From an uncultured Bacilli bacterium (GTDB taxonomy: Bacteria; Bacillota_I; Bacilli_A; RFN20; CAG-449), in the NCBI GenBank assembly GCA_944332075.1, contig CALVJL010000007.1, forward strand, positions 1 to 64,000: 64,000 nucleotides of DNA, read 5' to 3'. The translations under genes were made by a program, and so were the position numbers. Of the stretch, positions 36,579 to 50,659 are shown in pieces. Under the pieces are notes generated by a model, which was not told where the DNA came from, searched no databases, and saw nothing but the letters and a program-made list of their open reading frames with translations. Position 1 is the stretch's first letter. The number at the start of each line of letters is the position of its first letter.

Positions 36579-37526
36579 ATGGAATTAAATAGAGAAACTG
36601 CAATGCGGATTTGGAACCAGCGTTATGGAAGACAAATCGCAGTTAATGATTTTGCTGGGAGAAAAATTGTTAAATCGGCCTATGAAGATGAGATGAGCCA
36701 GTATTGTTGGTCACTTGGTCACATCTTACCTCCAGAGCAAGGTGGAGCGAACATCAACTATAATTTAATCTGCTGCCATAAATTAACCTTAACGGAAAAA
36801 GGTGATCATTTTCCTTTATTTTCAGCAAACGGAGAAAATTATGAAATCGTTAGAGTGATGAACCATTATGAAATCCATCTCCACGAAAAAAATGATGAAC
36901 AAGCTGTCACCATTATAAAAGAAGATAATGAAGGTATTAACTTATTAGACAAAGATAACGCCTTAAATTTATTAAAAGATATTTCAAGAAAACTCAACGA
37001 AGAAAGATTTATGTCAGTTATCCAAATCTCTTTAACAAATATCACTAACTTAGAAGTCCATGAATTTATTAAAGAATTATTTAATCAAGATAACGTTATC
37101 TTCTCACCTTTATCATCGCAATACCGTAATGATATCATCATCGCTGATTACGATTTATTTTCCAAAAGCGATGTTTCTAACTTATTAGATAAATGCGTCT
37201 TATTAAACACTTATCTTTCTAATTACTTTGTACCAAAGGGCGATATTATCACTTATAGTATCTACTTTACTGTTAAGCATTTTGAAAAGGGTAAAGATAT
37301 GTTTAACCATATCGACTTTGATGAATTAAAAAGATTAGCGTTATTACCTGGTAAATCAACAGTCTATATCGATTCTGAAGCTGCAATTAATTCTAAAGCT
37401 CAAAATTATATAAACCGTTTAACACCTGCAGTAATCGGTTATAAAAAATTCTATGAATATAACTTCATCTTTAAAAATCTTGCTGACCAGTTAAAAGCAG
37501 AATTAGCTAAAGAAACAAAAAAATAA
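36579..37526 (+). CDS. HNH-like protein with altered catalytic motif
   Basis: A 315-residue protein. Residues 1-90 follow an HNH nuclease pattern known from the group beginning xxWxxRYG...DFAGR: LGHILPPEQGG stands where active relatives have DHIxPxSxGG, then NLICCHKLTLTEKGDHFPLF. The first Asp is replaced by Gly, so catalysis may be lost or altered. The remaining 220 residues are not recognised. It lies alone between two terminators. It could be a regulator or binding protein derived from a nuclease. Confidence 0.6.
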   Translation: MELNRETAMRIWNQRYGRQIAVNDFAGRKIVKSAYEDEMSQYCWSLGHILPPEQGGANINYNLICCHKLTLTEKGDHFPLFSANGENYEIVRVMNHYEIHLHEKNDEQAVTIIKEDNEGINLLDKDNALNLLKDISRKLNEERFMSVIQISLTNITNLEVHEFIKELFNQDNVIFSPLSSQYRNDIIIADYDLFSKSDVSNLLDKCVLLNTYLSNYFVPKGDIITYSIYFTVKHFEKGKDMFNHIDFDELKRLALLPGKSTVYIDSEAAINSKAQNYINRLTPAVIGYKKFYEYNFIFKNLADQLKAELAKETKK

Positions 37527-37907: not shown

Positions 37908-38060
37908 GTGGTTATAAAAATAGTTGATTTAGTAACTTTAAAAGAGAGCCAAGAAGCTCGAAGACGCGCGCACAATCTTATTAACAAAGTCAGAAACCAT
38001 AAAAAAATAAAAGGTCATTATAAATTTTTTTGCAATAGTTATAAGTGTAAAAATGGATGA
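37908..38060 (+). CDS. Possible 50-residue basic peptide before the TOPRIM gene
   Basis: A GTG-started frame runs 50 codons and overlaps the TOPRIM ATG. The product is strongly basic (KESQEARRRAHNLINKVRNH) and ends with CNSYKCKNG. There is no clear ribosome site and no known family. A TATAAT lies just upstream (37890s). It could be an antitoxin-like small protein or chance. Confidence 0.3.
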   Translation: MVIKIVDLVTLKESQEARRRAHNLINKVRNHKKIKGHYKFFCNSYKCKNG

Positions 38061-38655
38061 ACGCGGGACAATGATACAAAGATTCAATGGTAACAACGAA
38101 TTATATGAAAATATCATTTCAGAGCTAGGTAATCTTGATGCTAACAATATTTTGTTTAGTCCTTCTAAAACTTTATTACTAGTCGAAGGAGAAGCAGATA
38201 AAGCTGTAATAAAGAAGCTTTCAGATCTACTAAGGTATGACATATCAGACTATTCCATTCATGTTTGCGATGGCGATTCTATCATGCAAGTATCGTATAT
38301 TTGTATAACTAACAATATAAAATTCATCGCAATAGCCGATTCTGATAATAAAAGCAAAGAGGAATGGTACCTTAATAGTCATAAAAATTTTAAAAAATGT
38401 TTAAACAAATATGAACAAGATTATAAGCATTGTTTCTTCGTCGGCAATGGCTCTAATGGATCAATAGAAAATTTATTTGACAGTAATAAAGATAAAATAT
38501 TTTATAAAAATGGCGAAAACAAGAAAAAAATAAGTATTAATTTAATTTCACAATTATCAAGTAAAGATGCTCTTAGCAATAAAGCTATTCAAAATTTCAA
38601 TGATTTATTTTTGAAAATAGGTTTGCATAAGAATAATATAGTCAAAAAATCTTAA
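38053..38655 (+). CDS. Stand-alone TOPRIM-domain protein (OLD C-terminus-like)
   Basis: A 200-residue protein. LLLVEGEADKAVIKKL (Glu45) and FIAIADSDN (Asp96, Asp98) form a TOPRIM nuclease site, and GSNGSIENLFD resembles the IE segment of OLD-family nucleases. OLD proteins normally have an N-terminal ABC-type ATPase, which is missing here, and the start has no ribosome site, so this may be a 5'-truncated gene or a domain working with another ATPase. An AAA15 ATPase gene starts 165 bases downstream. Confidence 0.65.
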   Translation: MDERGTMIQRFNGNNELYENIISELGNLDANNILFSPSKTLLLVEGEADKAVIKKLSDLLRYDISDYSIHVCDGDSIMQVSYICITNNIKFIAIADSDNKSKEEWYLNSHKNFKKCLNKYEQDYKHCFFVGNGSNGSIENLFDSNKDKIFYKNGENKKKISINLISQLSSKDALSNKAIQNFNDLFLKIGLHKNNIVKKS

Positions 38656-38820
38656 GGTATATCATCTTGGCTTTTCTTAGCATTACAGCAGTTTTTAGTA
38701 ATTAAATACAATAGAAAATAATTAAATTAATGTTTTTGAACATTTTTTGCAAAAATTCAAATTAAATTATTTAATTTCACAAATACTACTATATAATATT
38801 AGTAATAGGTGGGATGACAT

Positions 38821-40062
38821 ATGATTTTAGAATTTAGCATTAAGAATTTTCTATCATTCAAAGATAAGGTCACATTTAGCATGCTAGCCAACGCAACAAA
38901 AGGATTAGACGATAATTACGTTATGTATAAAGATCGAAGAATTTTAAAAACTGCTGCAATATATGGCGCTAACGCCTCTGGCAAAACTAATATATTTAAA
39001 ATTTTAGCTTTAATCACAGCAATGTTAAGAAATTCAAATAATGTTAATATAAACGCTAAACTTCCAATATCGCCATTTAAATTTGATGATAATGCAAATA
39101 AACTAAGCGAATTTGAAATTAAATTTATTATCGAGAATATTAGATACGTTTATGGTTTTATCGCTGATGCTAATAATATTTACGAAGAATATCTATATTA
39201 CTATCCAAACGGAAAAGAAACAAAAATCTTTGACAGAACAGAAATCAATAACTATTCATTTTCTCAAAAAGATGAAAAATTTTTAAGTGAAATAGTTAAA
39301 AAGAATACTCCAAATAAATTTTTTATAGCGACTGCGACAAATTGGAATTATGAAAAGACAAGACTTCCTTATAAATTTCTAAGTACCGAAATCAACGTTT
39401 TTAATAATTTAGGTGGACTTAGAGATTTTGCTCTAAAGGAATATTTAAAAAATGACGACGAATTAAAAACTTTTGCATTAGAATTTCTTAAAAATGCTGA
39501 TTTTAATATTGAAGATTATAAAGTTTTAGAAACAGAAGTTCCAGATGATTTGTTTGCAGCTATACCGGATTTTATTAAAGCTGGAATGAATATAAAAGAA
39601 AAGTTAAAAGTATTCACTGCTTTATTTAAACATAAGGGATCAGATGCTGAACTTTCTTATGAAGAAGAATCTTTAGGAACTCAGATTATTTTTTGTTTTA
39701 TTCCTTTTATAAGAGATGCTTTTAATAATAAAAAGGTTTTAATAGTTGATGAGTTAGATAAAAGCCTGCATCCATATTTAATCGAAATGATTGTTCAAAT
39801 GTTTAATGATCCAGATATTAATAAAAATGGTGCTCAATTAATTTTTAATACTCATGACACTAATTTATTGAGATTAAATATTTTAAGACGTGATCAAATA
39901 TGGTTTACCGAAAAGAATGATGATAATGGGGTAAGCACATTATATCCTTTAAGCGATTTTTCCGTTAGAAATAGCGAAAATGTAGAAAAAGGATACATGT
40001 TAGGACGATATGGAGCTGTTCCGTTTATCAAAAATGATTTTTACTTAAGAGAAGAAAAATGA
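38821..40062 (+). CDS. AAA15-type ATPase, AbiL/RloA-like defence subunit
   Basis: A 413-residue ATPase of the SMC/ABC-like AAA15 class. The start FSIKNFLSFKDKVTFSM is diagnostic. IYGANASGKTNIFK is Walker A, VLIVDELDKSLHPYLI Walker B, and FNTHDTNLL the H-loop. It overlaps the RloB-type gene by four bases. ATPase plus RloB TOPRIM pairs match the AbiL abortive-infection arrangement: the ATPase senses phage and the RloB partner acts. GGTGGG precedes the ATG. Confidence 0.85.
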   Translation: MILEFSIKNFLSFKDKVTFSMLANATKGLDDNYVMYKDRRILKTAAIYGANASGKTNIFKILALITAMLRNSNNVNINAKLPISPFKFDDNANKLSEFEIKFIIENIRYVYGFIADANNIYEEYLYYYPNGKETKIFDRTEINNYSFSQKDEKFLSEIVKKNTPNKFFIATATNWNYEKTRLPYKFLSTEINVFNNLGGLRDFALKEYLKNDDELKTFALEFLKNADFNIEDYKVLETEVPDDLFAAIPDFIKAGMNIKEKLKVFTALFKHKGSDAELSYEEESLGTQIIFCFIPFIRDAFNNKKVLIVDELDKSLHPYLIEMIVQMFNDPDINKNGAQLIFNTHDTNLLRLNILRRDQIWFTEKNDDNGVSTLYPLSDFSVRNSENVEKGYMLGRYGAVPFIKNDFYLREEK

Positions 40063-40685
40063 GCAAAAATAGGATTATCAGCAGTGACAGAGTAAGGCAA
40101 ATTAGAAAGCCTAAAACTAAAATATTAATTGCCGTTGAAGGCAAAAACAAAACTGAGAAAAACTATTTTAACAATTTTGAAAATGGTCAAAGATCATATA
40201 ATATTTCCTATGCCAGAAGAACCAATACCGATTCATTAAACTTAGTTACTATGCTAATTAAAGAAATAAAAGAATTGAGACTCAATTTACAAAATGGTGA
40301 TATGGCTTATTGCGTATTTGATACGGATACTAATCAAGATAAGAACATAATAATCAATAAAGCCATTGAACTAGCTAAAAATAATAGAATAATAGTTATC
40401 ACATCATCACCATGCTTTGAAATATGGTTCTTATTACATTATGTCTACACAACCGCGAGCATGAGTAATGATGATGTGATTAAAGCTCTCAAACAACATT
40501 ATCCAAAATACGAAAAGAATATTAATATTTATCCGTATATCAAAGAAAATTTAAATGAAGCTATTTTACGTTCAAAAAGATTAGAACAATATCATCTAAA
40601 TAACAATCATACAATCGGTAACATTGAAGCCAATCCAAATACTGAAGTATATAAAGTTATAGAATACTTAACAAAAAATAACTAG
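40059..40685 (+). CDS. RloB/AbiLii-like TOPRIM protein
   Basis: A 208-residue RloB-family protein. KILIAVEGKNKTEKNYF (Glu27) and YCVFDTDTNQD (Asp88, Asp90) are the TOPRIM metal site; SSPCFEIWFLLHYVYT is the RloB signature. It is the likely effector of the ATPase encoded immediately upstream, with ATGA overlap. RloB proteins are thought to act on RNA or DNA such as tRNA; the target is not shown here. A terminator follows. Confidence 0.88.
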   Translation: MSKNRIISSDRVRQIRKPKTKILIAVEGKNKTEKNYFNNFENGQRSYNISYARRTNTDSLNLVTMLIKEIKELRLNLQNGDMAYCVFDTDTNQDKNIIINKAIELAKNNRIIVITSSPCFEIWFLLHYVYTTASMSNDDVIKALKQHYPKYEKNINIYPYIKENLNEAILRSKRLEQYHLNNNHTIGNIEANPNTEVYKVIEYLTKNN

Positions 40686-40705
40686 GAGAAAATCCTAGTT
40701 ATTTT
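40677..40705 (+). terminator. Terminator of the AbiL-like pair, shared with the opposing operon
   Basis: AATAACTAGGA and TCCTAGTTATT form an eleven-pair stem with GAAAA loop, then TTTT. A-rich flank on the left lets it serve the opposing minus-strand unit. Confidence 0.9.
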
Positions 40706-40732: not shown

Positions 40733-40873
40733 TTACTTATCCCAAACATTTAAAATATCATCAAATGAGAAGGCTTTGTCACCGGCAACTGAATCACCAA
40801 CAGATGCAGCGATAACATCATCTAATTCGATATTTTCAATTTCAATAATTGGTTCAACATATATTTTTTTCAT
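40733..40873 (-). CDS. 46-residue acidic peptide, copy A
   Basis: A complete small gene with AAAGGAG site, 18 bases after the stop of the exported protein gene. The product starts MKKIYVEPIIEIENIELDDV, has GDKAFSFDDILN near the end, and no membrane span. It is a clear paralogue of the peptide at 42836-42976: same 46-residue length and the same IENIxLDDVIA and GDxAFxFDDI blocks. Function is unknown; the leader-like N-terminus and variable middle would also suit a modified-peptide precursor or a small partner of the exported protein. Confidence 0.85.
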   Translation of the reverse strand: MKKIYVEPIIEIENIELDDVIAASVGDSVAGDKAFSFDDILNVWDK

Positions 40874-40891
40874 TTTTAAATATCTCCTTTA

Positions 40892-42514
40892 TTACATTGC
40901 ATTTAAAGCATTTAAGATAGCTACGCTATTATCAGTTAATGAGCCCATTATTTCTTCATCGGCTAAATAAGCATCAACAACTGAATTAATTGAACGTCTA
41001 GCTTCTTTCATTAAATAAAGTTGCCCTTCATATTCCATATAGCAAACAGCTGCGAATGTTTGATCCATATGTTCAAGTAATCCATCAATAACTACTGCAA
41101 ATTGAGCATATTTAGCATTAGGGTCTGTTTCATCTAAGGCAACTGTTGAGTTAGGTGTTGCAACATATGCAATTTCTTTATCAGCAAATGGTTCTTGATA
41201 AACGCTAATTCCTTGTTCTTTCAAATATGCTACATAGTCAAATGCAGAACTTGTATTTGATTCATCAAATAAAGAATTTAAATTATCGTCGCCATCGATT
41301 TTAGTAGCATCAGCAAGAATTACACCATAGGAAGCTTCTTTAACAAATTTATCCATAGGAATACTAGTACCAAATCTAATTGAAGCAGAGTTGATTCTAG
41401 TACTAATTAAGCCAACGCCAAAAACAATATCATTTTCAACATATACATTATCTTTAGTATCTTTTGGAACCATTAAAGTTACTGACTGTGTACCATTTTC
41501 AAAGTTTATATTGCCATTATTTGCGCTAGCACTATATTTGTTGTTCATATCATCTATGATTGTAATAGTACCTTTACTAATATCTAATTTTAAATTATAA
41601 ATTTTTTCGTCGAGTCTAGTAAATTTAATTTTTCCACCCTTATAAATTCGTAAACTAACATCGTTATCAGAATTTTGCCATAATCTATTTTTAGTACCAT
41701 CCCCATCTTCATTTAAAATATTCCACTCGTCTGATAAATCATTCCAAAATAATTCACTAATATTGCTACCAATATCATCAATATTAACATAGTAATTTGT
41801 GTTCTCAATTTTGCTATTAGGCATCTCACTTACTGTAAAATTATTTAAAGAAATTTCTTGTTCTCTAATGTTTCTATCAACAATACCACTAGCTTTAAGT
41901 GATGTTTTAGTTGATAAAGAATTAAAGTAATCTTCACTAGATATTTCATCTACACCAGAAAGTGTAATTGATAAACTTCTAATGCCAATCTGATTCTTTT
42001 GACTTGAAAATGTGAATTGTAATTCTGTAGCACTATAAGAGCTAATATCTCCACTATCTATAACAAAGTTATCAGAGCTTAAATTTGGCTCAAATGTGTC
42101 AAAATTCAAATTGTCTACAGAATATTCTGCTGTGATTGTCTGTGGTTTAGTATCCCACTGTTTGCAAGTCAATGTAAAAGACTTTACAATGAACCCTTCT
42201 TCTTTCAAAGCAAATGTTACTGGTGATCCTTTTGTGACAGGCATATTCGTAATAGTTTGCGATTGTTTATTCGCACTATCAAAAGTAATCTCAGCACTTG
42301 GCAAATCTGCAACACCAAAATTTTCACTATTTACGACACGTTCTTTATATGAATTATCCCATGTAGAAAAGTCATCAAAACTAGTGAAATCATAAATGTA
42401 TTCTCTATTTGCTTCCGCCGCCTTCGCACTAGTTACACCATCTGCTGCAGACAAAGCAAAAATACCTCCGCCCACGAGCAAAGAAGCTGTAACTAATAAT
42501 TTTAATTTCTTCAT
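40892..42514 (-). CDS. Exported surface protein, copy A
   Basis: A 540-residue secreted protein with signal peptide (KLLVTASLLVGGGIFALSA, cleavage near AKA-AEA). The middle is beta-rich, with discoidin- or CBM-like stretches; the last 170 residues share a domain with copy B: SIRFGTSIP, ASYGVILAD, YAQFAVVIDGLLEHMDQTF and AAVCYMEYEGQLY. There is no LPxTG anchor and no catalytic motif. It is followed at once by a 46-residue peptide gene, as is copy B. Possibly an adhesin or a substrate-binding protein. Confidence 0.75.
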   Translation of the reverse strand: MKKLKLLVTASLLVGGGIFALSAADGVTSAKAAEANREYIYDFTSFDDFSTWDNSYKERVVNSENFGVADLPSAEITFDSANKQSQTITNMPVTKGSPVTFALKEEGFIVKSFTLTCKQWDTKPQTITAEYSVDNLNFDTFEPNLSSDNFVIDSGDISSYSATELQFTFSSQKNQIGIRSLSITLSGVDEISSEDYFNSLSTKTSLKASGIVDRNIREQEISLNNFTVSEMPNSKIENTNYYVNIDDIGSNISELFWNDLSDEWNILNEDGDGTKNRLWQNSDNDVSLRIYKGGKIKFTRLDEKIYNLKLDISKGTITIIDDMNNKYSASANNGNINFENGTQSVTLMVPKDTKDNVYVENDIVFGVGLISTRINSASIRFGTSIPMDKFVKEASYGVILADATKIDGDDNLNSLFDESNTSSAFDYVAYLKEQGISVYQEPFADKEIAYVATPNSTVALDETDPNAKYAQFAVVIDGLLEHMDQTFAAVCYMEYEGQLYLMKEARRSINSVVDAYLADEEIMGSLTDNSVAILNALNAM

Positions 42515-42835
42515 TTGTTTGCCCCCCTATAAATAAATTAAAATATTGTTTACATGAAAAATGTTATCACTTAAAAATATAAAAAAACATAAGATATATA
42601 AATAAAATGTTTATAACGCAAAAAAGATTAAGTTATACAAGATTTATTCTAAAAACCGCAAATATATTTAGAAAAACATATAGAAATATAACTTAATCTA
42701 ATATTTTTACAATCACTATCTATAAAATAGTGAATAAATTTCTATAAACCTTCCAGGAATATATAATAAGGGGCAAACAATATTATTAAATTCGAAGGAA
42801 GGTAATCTAACATCAAATATGATGAAAGATTTTGA
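42515..42835. other. Intergenic region between the two exported-protein cassettes
   Basis: No gene is seen. It is very AT-rich, holds the upstream region of copy A, and a distant ACCTTCC/GGAAGGT inverted pair (42748-42754 and 42797-42803). No clear T-run terminator for the copy B cassette was found, so read-through into copy A is possible. Confidence 0.4.
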
Positions 42836-42976
42836 TTAATATACATCGTTGAAAATATCATCGAAGGTGAAAGCATTATCACCAACAAAATCATCGCCAA
42901 ATTTTGAAACAGCAATAACATCATCTAATCTGATATTTTCGATTAAAATTTCAGGTTTAATATACTCCTTTTTCAT
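42836..42976 (-). CDS. 46-residue acidic peptide, copy B
   Basis: Paralogue of the peptide at 40733-40873. It starts MKKEYIKPEILIENIRLDDV and ends GDNAFTFDDIFNDVY. The only length change is a one-residue insertion balanced at the C-terminus. A GAGGAG-type site precedes the ATG, and it follows the copy B exported protein by 22 bases. Longer in-frame upstream starts run into the preceding gene and lack a site. Confidence 0.85.
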   Translation of the reverse strand: MKKEYIKPEILIENIRLDDVIAVSKFGDDFVGDNAFTFDDIFNDVY

Positions 42977-42998
42977 TTTATTAATCTCCTCTAAATAA

Positions 42999-44732
42999 CT
43001 AAGCATTATAATTAAGAATTGCATTTAAGATATCTTTATAATCTTCAGATAAGGTTCCTTCTTCGATATTATTAAGATATTCATTGGACAATGTTTTCAC
43101 TGAATATGTAACTTCGTTCATAACGTATAAATTATCATTTGTTTCCATATAACAAGCTGCTGTAATTTCTTCACCTATATGCTCCAACATATCTTTAATA
43201 ACAATTGCATATTGGAAATAAGGAGCTGTTTCTGGATTTTTTGATTCTTCAACAGCACCCGTATCAGTGTCAACCATTGCAATGTTCGAAGCTTGAGCAG
43301 AATGAAGAGTTTTGTTATTAATTAGTAAATTTTCAACAGAAGTTTCATTTTCAGCAAGTGTGTTAATATCTTCACCATTCAATCCAAAGATAACACCATA
43401 AGTAGCCTTTTCATCATACAATTTTGAACTTAATGCAGTACCAAATCTAATTGATGAATTTGTTACTTCTAAAACATTATCAATATATTCTATTGAGAAT
43501 GAATTATTGATAGTAGTATTTGTATCACTAGAATTATAAATTGTAAAACTATGATTATTATCTGAAAATGAATAGGTTCCGTTTAGATGACTTACAATAT
43601 CTCCTTTTTCATCACGTATTTCGATTTTAGATAAATTAGAAATATCTTTGAATGAAATAGAATTAATTATTCCATCATACGACATCGTAAGTGAGGAATG
43701 ATTTCCTTTATTAGTAAATAACTTTAAATCACCATTAGATATTTGTGGATAAGTGCCTGATCCATTATGCTTTGCATCATAAGACCATTTAGAATCGAAT
43801 CCTATTGTAGAAAGTTTGTTTTTATTAGGATTAAATGTAAAGCTACTTGTTAGATTTTTAGTAATAATAGATTTTGTTTCTGACACATTAGCAATCAAAC
43901 TTTTTTTAGTTGTTTGCAAAGCAAATTGCTCTCCAATCGAAAGATCTGAGATTAAAATATATTTAGCATATAATACCAAATCTTCAGTTACTAGAGTATT
44001 AACATCGAAAGGAGTAGTGAATTCACTATCAATATACCATCCTTCAAAAACAAAGCCTTCTTTTATAGGATTTTCATCTTTTAAATCTACGAGTTTTCCT
44101 TCGTCAACTTCAATGGTATTAATTATCTCATCTCCGTCCATCAATGTAACTGAATATTTATTATTTTCAATAATTTTAAACAAATCAAATGATTCTTGCG
44201 TTCCCTTATAACAAGCAAATCTTTCTTGACCACTACTTTTATTATATTCTAAAAATCTATCTTTTCCATTGCTATCTTTTTCTATATTTTGAAAATGAAA
44301 TGAGCCATCTTTTAAAATAGGTGTCCAATAAATATTTCCATCATTTTTCAAATATACATTATTGCTACTTCCATGGTATTCGACATATTGTTCACCAATT
44401 TGCAAAGTATAATAACCGTTAGAGCTATCCTTTTTTATATTAATTATTTCAGCACCATTTAATTCTGTAGTTCTTTGAAAAATATTTTCTCCAAAACTAC
44501 CTAAAAAATTACCCGACTTGATTGAACTTGTATTTTCATCAAAATTAACATCGTAGCCAAAAATATAATTTCCATCGGATAATGCTTCAACACTATCAAT
44601 CTTTTCATATTGGCAGTTAGTTAAATCAATATCCGCCGCATTGGCCTTTATTATGTTATTAGAAGAGGAAGCTAATAGACCCCCCCCCACAAGCAACGCA
44701 GCACTTGTGATTAACAATTTAATTTTTTTCAT
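42999..44732 (-). CDS. Exported surface protein with InlB B-repeat, copy B
   Basis: A 577-residue secreted protein: signal peptide (LLITSAALLVGGGLLASS), an N-terminal beta-rich domain, one InlB B-repeat/Flg_new-type repeat (EGFVFEGWYIDSEFTTPFD), and the same C-terminal domain as copy A (SSIRFGTALS, ATYGVIFGL, YFQYAIVIKDMLEHIGEEI, AACYMETNDNLY). There is no wall anchor. The three Gly codons of the signal peptide lie in a run of nine G (44690-44698), which could slip and switch the gene off and on. The function is probably adhesion or surface binding. Confidence 0.8.
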   Translation of the reverse strand: MKKIKLLITSAALLVGGGLLASSSNNIIKANAADIDLTNCQYEKIDSVEALSDGNYIFGYDVNFDENTSSIKSGNFLGSFGENIFQRTTELNGAEIINIKKDSSNGYYTLQIGEQYVEYHGSSNNVYLKNDGNIYWTPILKDGSFHFQNIEKDSNGKDRFLEYNKSSGQERFACYKGTQESFDLFKIIENNKYSVTLMDGDEIINTIEVDEGKLVDLKDENPIKEGFVFEGWYIDSEFTTPFDVNTLVTEDLVLYAKYILISDLSIGEQFALQTTKKSLIANVSETKSIITKNLTSSFTFNPNKNKLSTIGFDSKWSYDAKHNGSGTYPQISNGDLKLFTNKGNHSSLTMSYDGIINSISFKDISNLSKIEIRDEKGDIVSHLNGTYSFSDNNHSFTIYNSSDTNTTINNSFSIEYIDNVLEVTNSSIRFGTALSSKLYDEKATYGVIFGLNGEDINTLAENETSVENLLINNKTLHSAQASNIAMVDTDTGAVEESKNPETAPYFQYAIVIKDMLEHIGEEITAACYMETNDNLYVMNEVTYSVKTLSNEYLNNIEEGTLSEDYKDILNAILNYNA

Positions 44733-48605: not shown

Positions 48606-48618
48606 AGCAGCTTTTTAT
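48589..48618 (+). terminator. Terminator after the acyl ligase gene
   Basis: AAAGCTGCT and AGCAGCTTT pair around a six-base loop, followed by T. It overlaps the stop and converges with the histidine kinase gene. Confidence 0.88.
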
Positions 48619-49955
48619 ATTGTAAATAACAAATTAATTCTAAAAATATTATTCTCCGCGTCAATTTCCATTGAGCCATCATACTTCGCGCAGATCATTT
48701 TAACTGATTGAAGACCAAATCCGTGATAAGCTGAATCACCTTTACTAGTTTTTGGTAACCCGTTAACCATCTTTATTTCGCCTGAGAAAGAGTTCTTTGA
48801 AGATATTGAAACTAAATTACCAATTGCTTTAATCTTTAAAATAATTATTCTCTTATCTTCTTCAAGTTCCTTAACCGCGTCAATTGCATTATCAATGATA
48901 TTGCCAAATAAAGAATAGATATCCTCTTCTTCCATGAATGAAATAAGCTGACCATCCGCGACGCAGGAAAACTTAATATTATATTTATTACAAATCAAAG
49001 ATTTTTCACCGAGAATAATATTTAACGTCTTATTGGAAGTCTTAATCGCCGAATCATAAATATCGATATAACTATTAATATTTTTAATAACATTCTCATC
49101 GATATGATTGTATCTCCCCATATCGCGGATTTGATGACGGAAATCATGGCATTTAACGTTAATCATATCAATCGTTTGCTTACTTAACTGATATTGCTCT
49201 TTTTCACCTTTTCTAATTGCCTGAATAATTTCATATTTTCGGTTAAGGTTATTACGGTAATAAACTTCAAAAATAAACATAATACCGAAGGCGCAGCAGA
49301 TGAAATTAATCATGGAAACTAAGCCGATATAAATTCTTTCAAAGTGAATTGATGAATAATAGCTGACCACGGAATTAATTACGACATTAATTAAAATATA
49401 GAAAATACCGATAATAACTAAACTATAACGCGTCTCTTCATGGAAACTTTCACCTTTAACAATTCTCCGAGCAAACAATAAAAAGATAATCCAGTAGACA
49501 TTAATAAATGAAGCTATCCAAAGTGTTAAATCGACAGAGTTAGCAAAAAGTTTCAGCTTATCATAATCATAAAGTCCACCTAAAGCTGAATCGTTAGCCA
49601 CGATAAAGCAATGAAGCATCATATAAAGTTCATACGCGGCATGTTCAGCGGTATACGCGCAGATAAGCGAAAAAAGGATCATTCTCCAATTTTCTTTAAA
49701 AAGCCATAACGCCATCACAAAAGTAAAGGCGAACATAATTAAAAACATCGCCATTGAATAAAAGGCATTGCCGGTTGGAATAGGAAAAGCTAATGCAAAA
49801 AGAAAACAAGCTAAAATAGCAATGATAAGTTTAATAACAAATTTATCTTTTCTTTTAAACTTATAGCAAAACATGCCTTCGGCAACGAGTAATGTCGCCA
49901 TAAAAATTAAGCGATAAAAGAATAAACTATTAATCGGATACAATAATTTTAACAT
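48615..49955 (-). CDS. GHKL sensor histidine kinase (AgrC-like)
   Basis: A 446-residue sensor kinase with about seven membrane spans (residues 1-235) and a cytoplasmic kinase: CHDFRHQIRDM contains the phospho-accepting His, NIIDNAIDAVKELEED is the N-box, and YHGFGLQSVKMICAKYDG the G-box. This is the peptide-sensing AgrC/ComD class by shape. It overlaps the response-regulator gene by seven bases. No signal-peptide gene is seen beside it, so the ligand is unknown. Confidence 0.92.
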   Translation of the reverse strand: MLKLLYPINSLFFYRLIFMATLLVAEGMFCYKFKRKDKFVIKLIIAILACFLFALAFPIPTGNAFYSMAMFLIMFAFTFVMALWLFKENWRMILFSLICAYTAEHAAYELYMMLHCFIVANDSALGGLYDYDKLKLFANSVDLTLWIASFINVYWIIFLLFARRIVKGESFHEETRYSLVIIGIFYILINVVINSVVSYYSSIHFERIYIGLVSMINFICCAFGIMFIFEVYYRNNLNRKYEIIQAIRKGEKEQYQLSKQTIDMINVKCHDFRHQIRDMGRYNHIDENVIKNINSYIDIYDSAIKTSNKTLNIILGEKSLICNKYNIKFSCVADGQLISFMEEEDIYSLFGNIIDNAIDAVKELEEDKRIIILKIKAIGNLVSISSKNSFSGEIKMVNGLPKTSKGDSAYHGFGLQSVKMICAKYDGSMEIDAENNIFRINLLFTI

Positions 49956-50659
49956 TTTCCTAAATATGCGCTGAGCTCCTTCATAAATTCTTTTTTACGC
50001 GGATGAGAAATTAATAACTTATGTCCCTTGACCGTGACATCATAGCCATCTACTCTCTCAACATAATCGAGATTAACTAAAAAGCAAGAATTGCATAAAG
50101 CAAAATTAAAGCTTTTTAATTCTTTTTCAACAGCTTTTAACGAACCATATGTCTTAAAATCACCAACCGATGTATGATAAATCATCTGATGACCAGAGAT
50201 TTCTACATAATAGATATCTTTAATCTTGACCACTGCCTTCATCCCATCATTTTGAAGGAGAATTCTCTCCGATTTTTGGGAATTAATTTTTGAAACAATC
50301 GCCATAATCTGCGATGAAAAATCAAAATAGGAATAAGGCTTAACGATATAATTAAAAGCATTAACCTTATATCCTTCAATAGCATACTGAGCTAAATTGG
50401 TTGTAAAAACCAAAACGACATCTTCATCAATTTTTCGAAGCTTTTTTGACACCTCAATTCCGTTATCTTTACTGCTTAAATCAATATCCATTAAGACTAA
50501 ATCAAACACTCCGTATTGAAAAGAAAAAAGAAATTGATCACCGTTTAAAAAGAATGACAAAGCAAACTTTTCTCCGCTTTCTTCACTGAGCCTTTCAAAA
50601 AAAGTTTTCGCCTTTTCTTGATCTTGAATATCATCTTCTACAATTGCAATTTTAATCAT
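49949..50659 (-). CDS. LytTR response regulator (AgrA-like)
   Basis: A 236-residue regulator. The receiver domain has IAIVEDD, VLMDIDLSSKDNG (phospho-Asp) and TTNLAQYAIEGYKVNAFNYIVKP (Thr and Lys of the switch); residues 135-236 are a LytTR DNA-binding domain (DIYYVEISGHQMIYHT, FALCNSCFLVNLDYVERV). It is the partner of the downstream GHKL kinase. Targets would have paired LytTR sites, not identified here. Confidence 0.95.
   Translation of the reverse strand: MIKIAIVEDDIQDQEKAKTFFERLSEESGEKFALSFFLNGDQFLFSFQYGVFDLVLMDIDLSSKDNGIEVSKKLRKIDEDVVLVFTTNLAQYAIEGYKVNAFNYIVKPYSYFDFSSQIMAIVSKINSQKSERILLQNDGMKAVVKIKDIYYVEISGHQMIYHTSVGDFKTYGSLKAVEKELKSFNFALCNSCFLVNLDYVERVDGYDVTVKGHKLLISHPRKKEFMKELSAYLGKC

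Follow-up and report, generated by a model that had tools for sequence, protein, structure and literature searches.

The linear polyphosphorylated peptides (LPPs), described in 2026 from the lpp cluster of Paenibacillus alginolyticus DSM5050, are ribosomally synthesized and post-translationally modified peptides (RiPPs) whose precursors carry a leader of the form YxxPxVLxHQxIxFETxxS (PMC13381572). During their maturation, Ser3 of the core is phosphorylated several times in a kinase-dependent manner, and a SipW-like peptidase cleaves off the leader in a step that depends on a RiPP recognition element (RRE); LPPs are said to be restricted to Bacillota, exported partner proteins do not figure in the main text, and the role of LPPs and of paeninodin-type phosphopeptides is given as unknown (PMC13381572). 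Here we analyse 64,000 nucleotides of contig CALVJL010000007.1 from an uncultured Bacilli bacterium (hereafter, the window), in which two genes for large exported proteins are each followed by a gene for a 46-residue peptide (Table 1). We propose that these peptides are LPP-like RiPP precursors, matured in trans by a single distant operon, and that the released cores then partner the exported proteins, a reading to which we assign a probability of roughly 0.78.

The likeness to LPP biosynthesis extends to five core genes, encoding an HprK-like kinase, a discrete RRE, a SipW-like signal peptidase, an MsbA-like exporter and an NTP_transf_5 protein, to short precursors with a conserved YxxP...S leader and a variable C terminus, and to the lack of a lasso B2 peptidase. 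In contrast to LPPs, the precursors studied here lie outside the cluster, scattered and several to a genome. Each has a gene for a large exported protein as its neighbour and, in many cases, one for a Ser-rich lipoprotein as well. Similar operon parts also occur in Prevotella. Their leaders keep the Tyr/Phe, Pro, hydrophobic and Ser positions but are without the HQ and FET elements and are usually one residue longer, for which reason we call the peptides LPP-like. Paeninodin-like phosphorylated lasso peptides share the HprK-like kinase, NTP_transf_5, RRE, ABC exporter and, as predicted here, phosphorylation of Ser, but have a WxxP rather than a YxxP leader; in our case no B2 was found, no cyclase was seen, and a SipW-like peptidase is present instead. 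Pyrroloquinoline quinone (PqqA/PqqD) and other discrete-RRE RiPPs likewise use a PqqD-fold RRE to read a short leader, but rely on other enzymes; the cores described here are without the Glu-Tyr cofactor motif, and no PqqB, PqqC or PqqE was seen in the operon neighbourhood.

The comparison covered 18 genomes of the same family, 245 of the order and 392 of the phylum, mostly metagenome-assembled genomes (MAGs), with gene starts called by a simple rule and signal peptides by a crude hydrophobicity rule; G000 denotes the source genome. A profile search detected the peptide family in 10/18, 28/245 and 33/392 genomes, respectively, and also in two Prevotella-type MAGs. Pfam and NCBIfam hold no family matching the window peptides, even at E=1, and a PDB profile search with the family returned only chance matches to RIG-I. 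When 38 diverse members were aligned, the first 24 residues followed the pattern M-K-K-x-[YF]-x-x-P-x-[hydrophobic]...[IV]-[IL]-x-x-S, in which Pro and Ser are invariant, the residue before xxP is Tyr or Phe and never Trp, and the Y-to-S spacing is mostly 19 as compared with 18 in the LPP consensus. For the second window peptide, this homologous start (MKKEYIKP) is internal to the 62-residue frame that the open reading frame (ORF) finder begins at an upstream ATG. The tail is variable, acidic, rich in Trp and Phe and usually devoid of Cys, and the three cores of the source genome contain no Cys and carry a net charge of -3 to -6. A conserved first half joined to a variable second half is the architecture of a RiPP, and, as judged from sequence, the conserved half is a Y-x-x-P...S leader of the type that stand-alone PqqD/RRE proteins bind. 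By analogy with LppA, Tyr5 and Pro8 of precursor 1 would form the RRE motif, the invariant Ser24 would correspond to Ser3 as predicted phospho-acceptor, and the leader is predicted to be cut off between residues 21 and 22, so that Ser24 would become the third of about 25 remaining residues.

The YxxP...S leader led us to search for a PqqD-type recognition element, and the source genome encodes one (PF05402, 40.7 bits, cut-off 23.4) within the five-gene operon listed in Table 1. Its only sensible match in the PDB is the lasso RRE TfuB1 (E=0.0035). The signal peptidase matches S24 (33 bits) and, as a distant member, TIGR02228 (43.7 bits, below the curated cut-off of 51.85), and the NTP_transf_5 protein matches PF14907 with 92 bits. 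Across 20 RRE loci examined, the order kinase, RRE, peptidase, exporter, NTP-transferase is retained in most, the exceptions being a few gene fusions (kinase-peptidase, peptidase-NTP-transferase) or contig ends. Residues of catalysis and leader recognition are conserved as well: the Ser/His/Asp triad of the peptidase (GxSMxP / LHR / GD), the HprK P-loop SGTGKSTH of the kinase and, among 27 RREs, the two residues that in LppB grip the YxxP motif, with the Asn corresponding to LppB N33 in nearly all and the Asp corresponding to D70 in most. Among distant families of this class, genes of the operon directly adjoin precursor and exported protein. Next to the biosynthetic operon in L116 (genome G138), two divergent cassettes of precursor and large lipoprotein stand head to head.

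Precursor and operon occur together. At the level of the order, the RRE is present in 25/28 precursor genomes and 9/217 others (p=1.6e-23) and NTP_transf_5 in 27/28 and 11/217 (p=4.8e-26); for the phylum, the RRE figures are 32/33 and 19/359 (p=1.5e-32). These p-values overstate independence because the genomes are related, although the split inside the 18-genome family is clean (RRE in 9/10 precursor genomes against 0/8 others). Precursor genomes of the order missing the RRE include one that is 65% complete and another, G139, whose operon contig is interrupted by an assembly gap, and inspection of G230, RRE-positive without a profile match, revealed a diverged YxxP...S precursor between two lipoprotein genes. 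Both Prevotella-type genomes carry an RRE beside kinase and peptidase homologs, one of them also an exporter homolog. Their YxxP peptides (L223, L224) follow exported proteins with C-termini resembling type IX secretion tails.

The second pillar of the argument is the pairing with exported proteins. The earlier note on this DNA had described two tandem cassettes, each an exported protein followed within 25 bases by a paralogous 46-residue peptide, and had taken them for a functional pair. The description holds, with gaps of 22 bp in cassette 1 and 18 bp in cassette 2, peptides that are about 66% identical, and a good Shine-Dalgarno sequence for each peptide (AAAGGAGAT and AGAGGAGAT). A third copy in the same genome (L004, 8755-8892, on C1 of G000) brings the total to three and lies 19 bp after the gene of an 890-residue exported protein; downstream of it are a Ser-rich lipoprotein and a lipoprotein that, from a reading of its sequence, resembles a family-5 glycoside hydrolase. 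Of 79 family members examined, 69 have a gene for a Sec-exported protein or lipoprotein on their own strand and no more than 60 bp away, against a background of 26% of genes at the same loci with the same crude signal detector (p=5e-15), and for 65 of the 69 the partner has at least 300 residues. Chance is thereby excluded, and the outcome that would have spoken against a pair, a peptide family mostly found without the exported protein in other genomes, did not materialize. There is one precursor per exported gene, with up to ten per genome, and the two overlap or are spaced by 2-28 bp, the partner usually being upstream and sometimes downstream. Partners are diverse in kind, including Flg_new repeats, CBM26, LTD, Big_2 and weak CBM35/F5-8 matches. 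A Ser-rich lipoprotein of 70-130 residues is a frequent third member, ending in Trp, Pro or Gly plus hydrophobic residues (ELPWL, EFPPI, WGPVI, FPWI).

The C-terminal domain to which the earlier note drew attention is indeed common to exported proteins 1 and 2 (30% identity over 264 residues, E=1e-18), and their signal peptides are alike in style. An AlphaFold model of the domain (pLDDT 82.7) predicts a beta-rich fold with C-terminal helices and has no significant match in the PDB. The peptide is nevertheless not tied to this domain, since the third copy follows the unrelated 890-residue protein, which had no match to the 540-residue protein in the genome search; elsewhere, too, the peptide accompanies many unrelated exported proteins and is sometimes upstream of them.

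What changes with the partner is the core. The leaders of one genome remain alike with any partner, as a single shared RRE would lead one to expect. When cassettes of one genome are compared, tail similarity has a median of 0.49 for homologous partners and 0.12 for unrelated ones (p=1.5e-4), and together with the conserved adjacency this tracking upholds the idea of a functional pair. The source genome and G002 have identical DNA over precursor 2, in a stretch of about 190 bp that ends with its stop codon and takes in the last ~10 codons of the partner, whereas exported protein 2 falls to 17-33% identity over residues 181-360 and is about 92% identical at both ends. This pattern is compatible with a core that acts together with the unchanging end of a surface protein, while the middle of that protein diversifies. 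The counterpart of exported protein 2 (L046, 328-1881) belongs to another species of the same genus, its middle being swapped or hypervariable.

Several observations weigh against our proposal. Ten of the 79 precursors are without a recognised exported neighbour, several of them at contig edges or beside truncated or mis-started ORFs; the leader departs from the LPP consensus in the respects given above; and the HprK-like kinase has no Pfam model match and only a weak NCBIfam match. Leaders, like tails, are more alike where partners are homologous (0.69 vs 0.47), and core and partner could be inherited together merely because whole cassettes were duplicated, which is the simpler alternative.

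The strongest competitor, which we regard as unlikely, accepts an LPP-like precursor but has the mature peptide act as a free signal or antimicrobial, its adjacency reflecting no more than co-regulation of surface and secretion genes. Lasso peptides and LPPs are usually seen as free natural products, and the window contains a GHKL/LytTR two-component pair at a distance of 4-6 kb; against this stand the tight one-to-one arrangement of precursors and exported genes and the cores that differ between cassettes of one genome yet follow the partner, and we noticed no dedicated immunity gene that recurs with each cassette. We consider it improbable that the peptide is instead a recruiter, whose leader would bring the kinase and NTP-transferase to the exported protein or lipoprotein as the real substrate. 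A partner is always at hand for such a role, and the small lipoproteins are rich in Ser and have conserved hydrophobic/Trp tails, but the peptide has an invariant Ser of its own near the spacing that is phosphorylated in LppA, and the partners, which bear Sec signals, cross the membrane unfolded.

The earlier note had offered three roles for the peptide, of which the precursor of a modified peptide is strongly upheld by the leader motif, the operon acting in trans and their co-occurrence, and the chaperone and the exported signal found no support. An unprocessed cytosolic chaperone or export pilot of the secreted neighbour would suit an acidic peptide that is tightly adjacent and has no signal peptide of its own, but we think it very improbable: the leader is conserved across partners that are unrelated to one another, and the near-perfect association with the RRE/kinase/peptidase operon is something a chaperone would not need. 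Chaperone and toxin-antitoxin readings were both abandoned, as it is the RRE operon, and not a protein family, that the peptide goes with. An Agr-type peptide, considered on general grounds, was set aside once the RRE operon had been found (no AgrB search was made). Least probable of all, and rejected, is a lasso peptide precursor, for which the shared YxxP leader class, the TfuB1 match and weak matches to NCBIfam lasso PqqD models might speak, as B2 (PF13471) is absent from the source genome and above cut-off in none of the 18 family genomes, a SipW-like peptidase takes its place, no cyclase-like or macrolactam synthetase gene lies in the operon neighbourhood, and ring positions 7-9 following a conserved Gly1 show no consistent D/E in the cores.

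If the window peptides are LPP-like precursors, homology with the Paenibacillus lpp system, which has been studied by experiment, suggests the following course. The RRE would bind the leader through Tyr5-x-x-Pro8 and the strand that follows, the HprK-like kinase would phosphorylate Ser24, the NTP-transferase might attach another group, the signal-peptidase-like protease would cut just before Ser24, and the ABC exporter would release the acidic, aromatic core of ~25 residues. Outside the cell, the core, the adjacent Sec-exported protein and the Ser-rich lipoprotein might form a surface complex, a step suggested only by gene pairing and the co-inheritance of core and partner.

Table 1. Cassettes and associated features of the window, and the biosynthetic operon of the source genome
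Feature	Position	Strand	Description
Exported protein 1, 577 aa	42999..44732	-	Sec signal peptide; Flg_new/List-Bact repeat (PF09479, 49.8 bits)
LPP-like RiPP precursor 1 (proposed), 46 aa	42836..42976	-	Predicted leader MKKEYIKPEILIENIRLDDVIAVS, predicted core KFGDDFVGDNAFTFDDIFNDVY, by analogy with LppA
Exported protein 2, 540 aa	40892..42514	-	Sec signal peptide; variable middle; conserved C-terminal domain
LPP-like RiPP precursor 2 (proposed), 46 aa	40733..40873	-	Predicted leader MKKIYVEPIIEIENIELDDVIAAS, predicted core VGDSVAGDKAFSFDDILNVWDK
Inverted repeat with T/A runs, 13 pairs	40675..40705	.	Separates the genes of precursor 2 and RloB/AbiLii, which converge
Ser-rich small lipoprotein, 73 aa	37554..37775	-	C-terminal EVVFPWI; same type as precursor-attached lipoproteins of relatives
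Biosynthetic operon	G000:C1, L151 10030->5873		HprK-like kinase, PqqD/RRE, SipW-like S24/S26 signal peptidase, MsbA-like ABC exporter, NTP_transf_5

The surroundings of the cassettes contain further features. The inverted repeat is likely a terminator, possibly bidirectional, as predicted from a consensus match. The Ser-rich lipoprotein gene of the window is now separated from the cassettes by defence genes (38053-40685), and in G001 (L049) an ortholog of the window's 315-residue gene at 36579 directly adjoins a precursor. The defence genes lie on the forward strand and include, where the window is low in GC, an AbiL-type pair (38821-40685) of overlapping genes for an AAA_21 ATPase (AbiLi, 316 bits) and RloB (AbiLii, 88 bits), probably an anti-phage system. 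Just upstream, a 200-residue OLD/GajA-like TOPRIM protein without the ATPase half (38053-38655) is a remnant or a split nuclease. A few kb from the cassettes, on the reverse strand at 48615-50659, are a GHKL sensor kinase and a LytTR response regulator resembling AgrC/AgrA, and a similar-looking pair adjoins precursor cassettes in L052 and L096.

As far as gene arrangement and sequence can tell, what is new here is that the precursors are dispersed in trans, that each exported protein has one of its own whose core tracks the partner, and that two Prevotella genomes have a similar arrangement; our literature search found nothing on such pairing with exported proteins. More generally, we give about even odds to the idea that one trans-acting phosphopeptide factory serves scattered precursors, each matched to its own surface protein, and often to a small lipoprotein, as anchor, subunit or ligand, in uncultured Bacilli and in Bacteroidota as well. 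LPP-type machinery is probably not limited to Bacillota, and precursors located far from their enzymes escape cluster-based mining. The pairing points to the surface, with a named partner for each precursor, as the place to seek the role of LPP- and paeninodin-type peptides, and if the core is indeed bound or attached to the exported protein, RiPPs would have a new use, namely as components of surface proteins.

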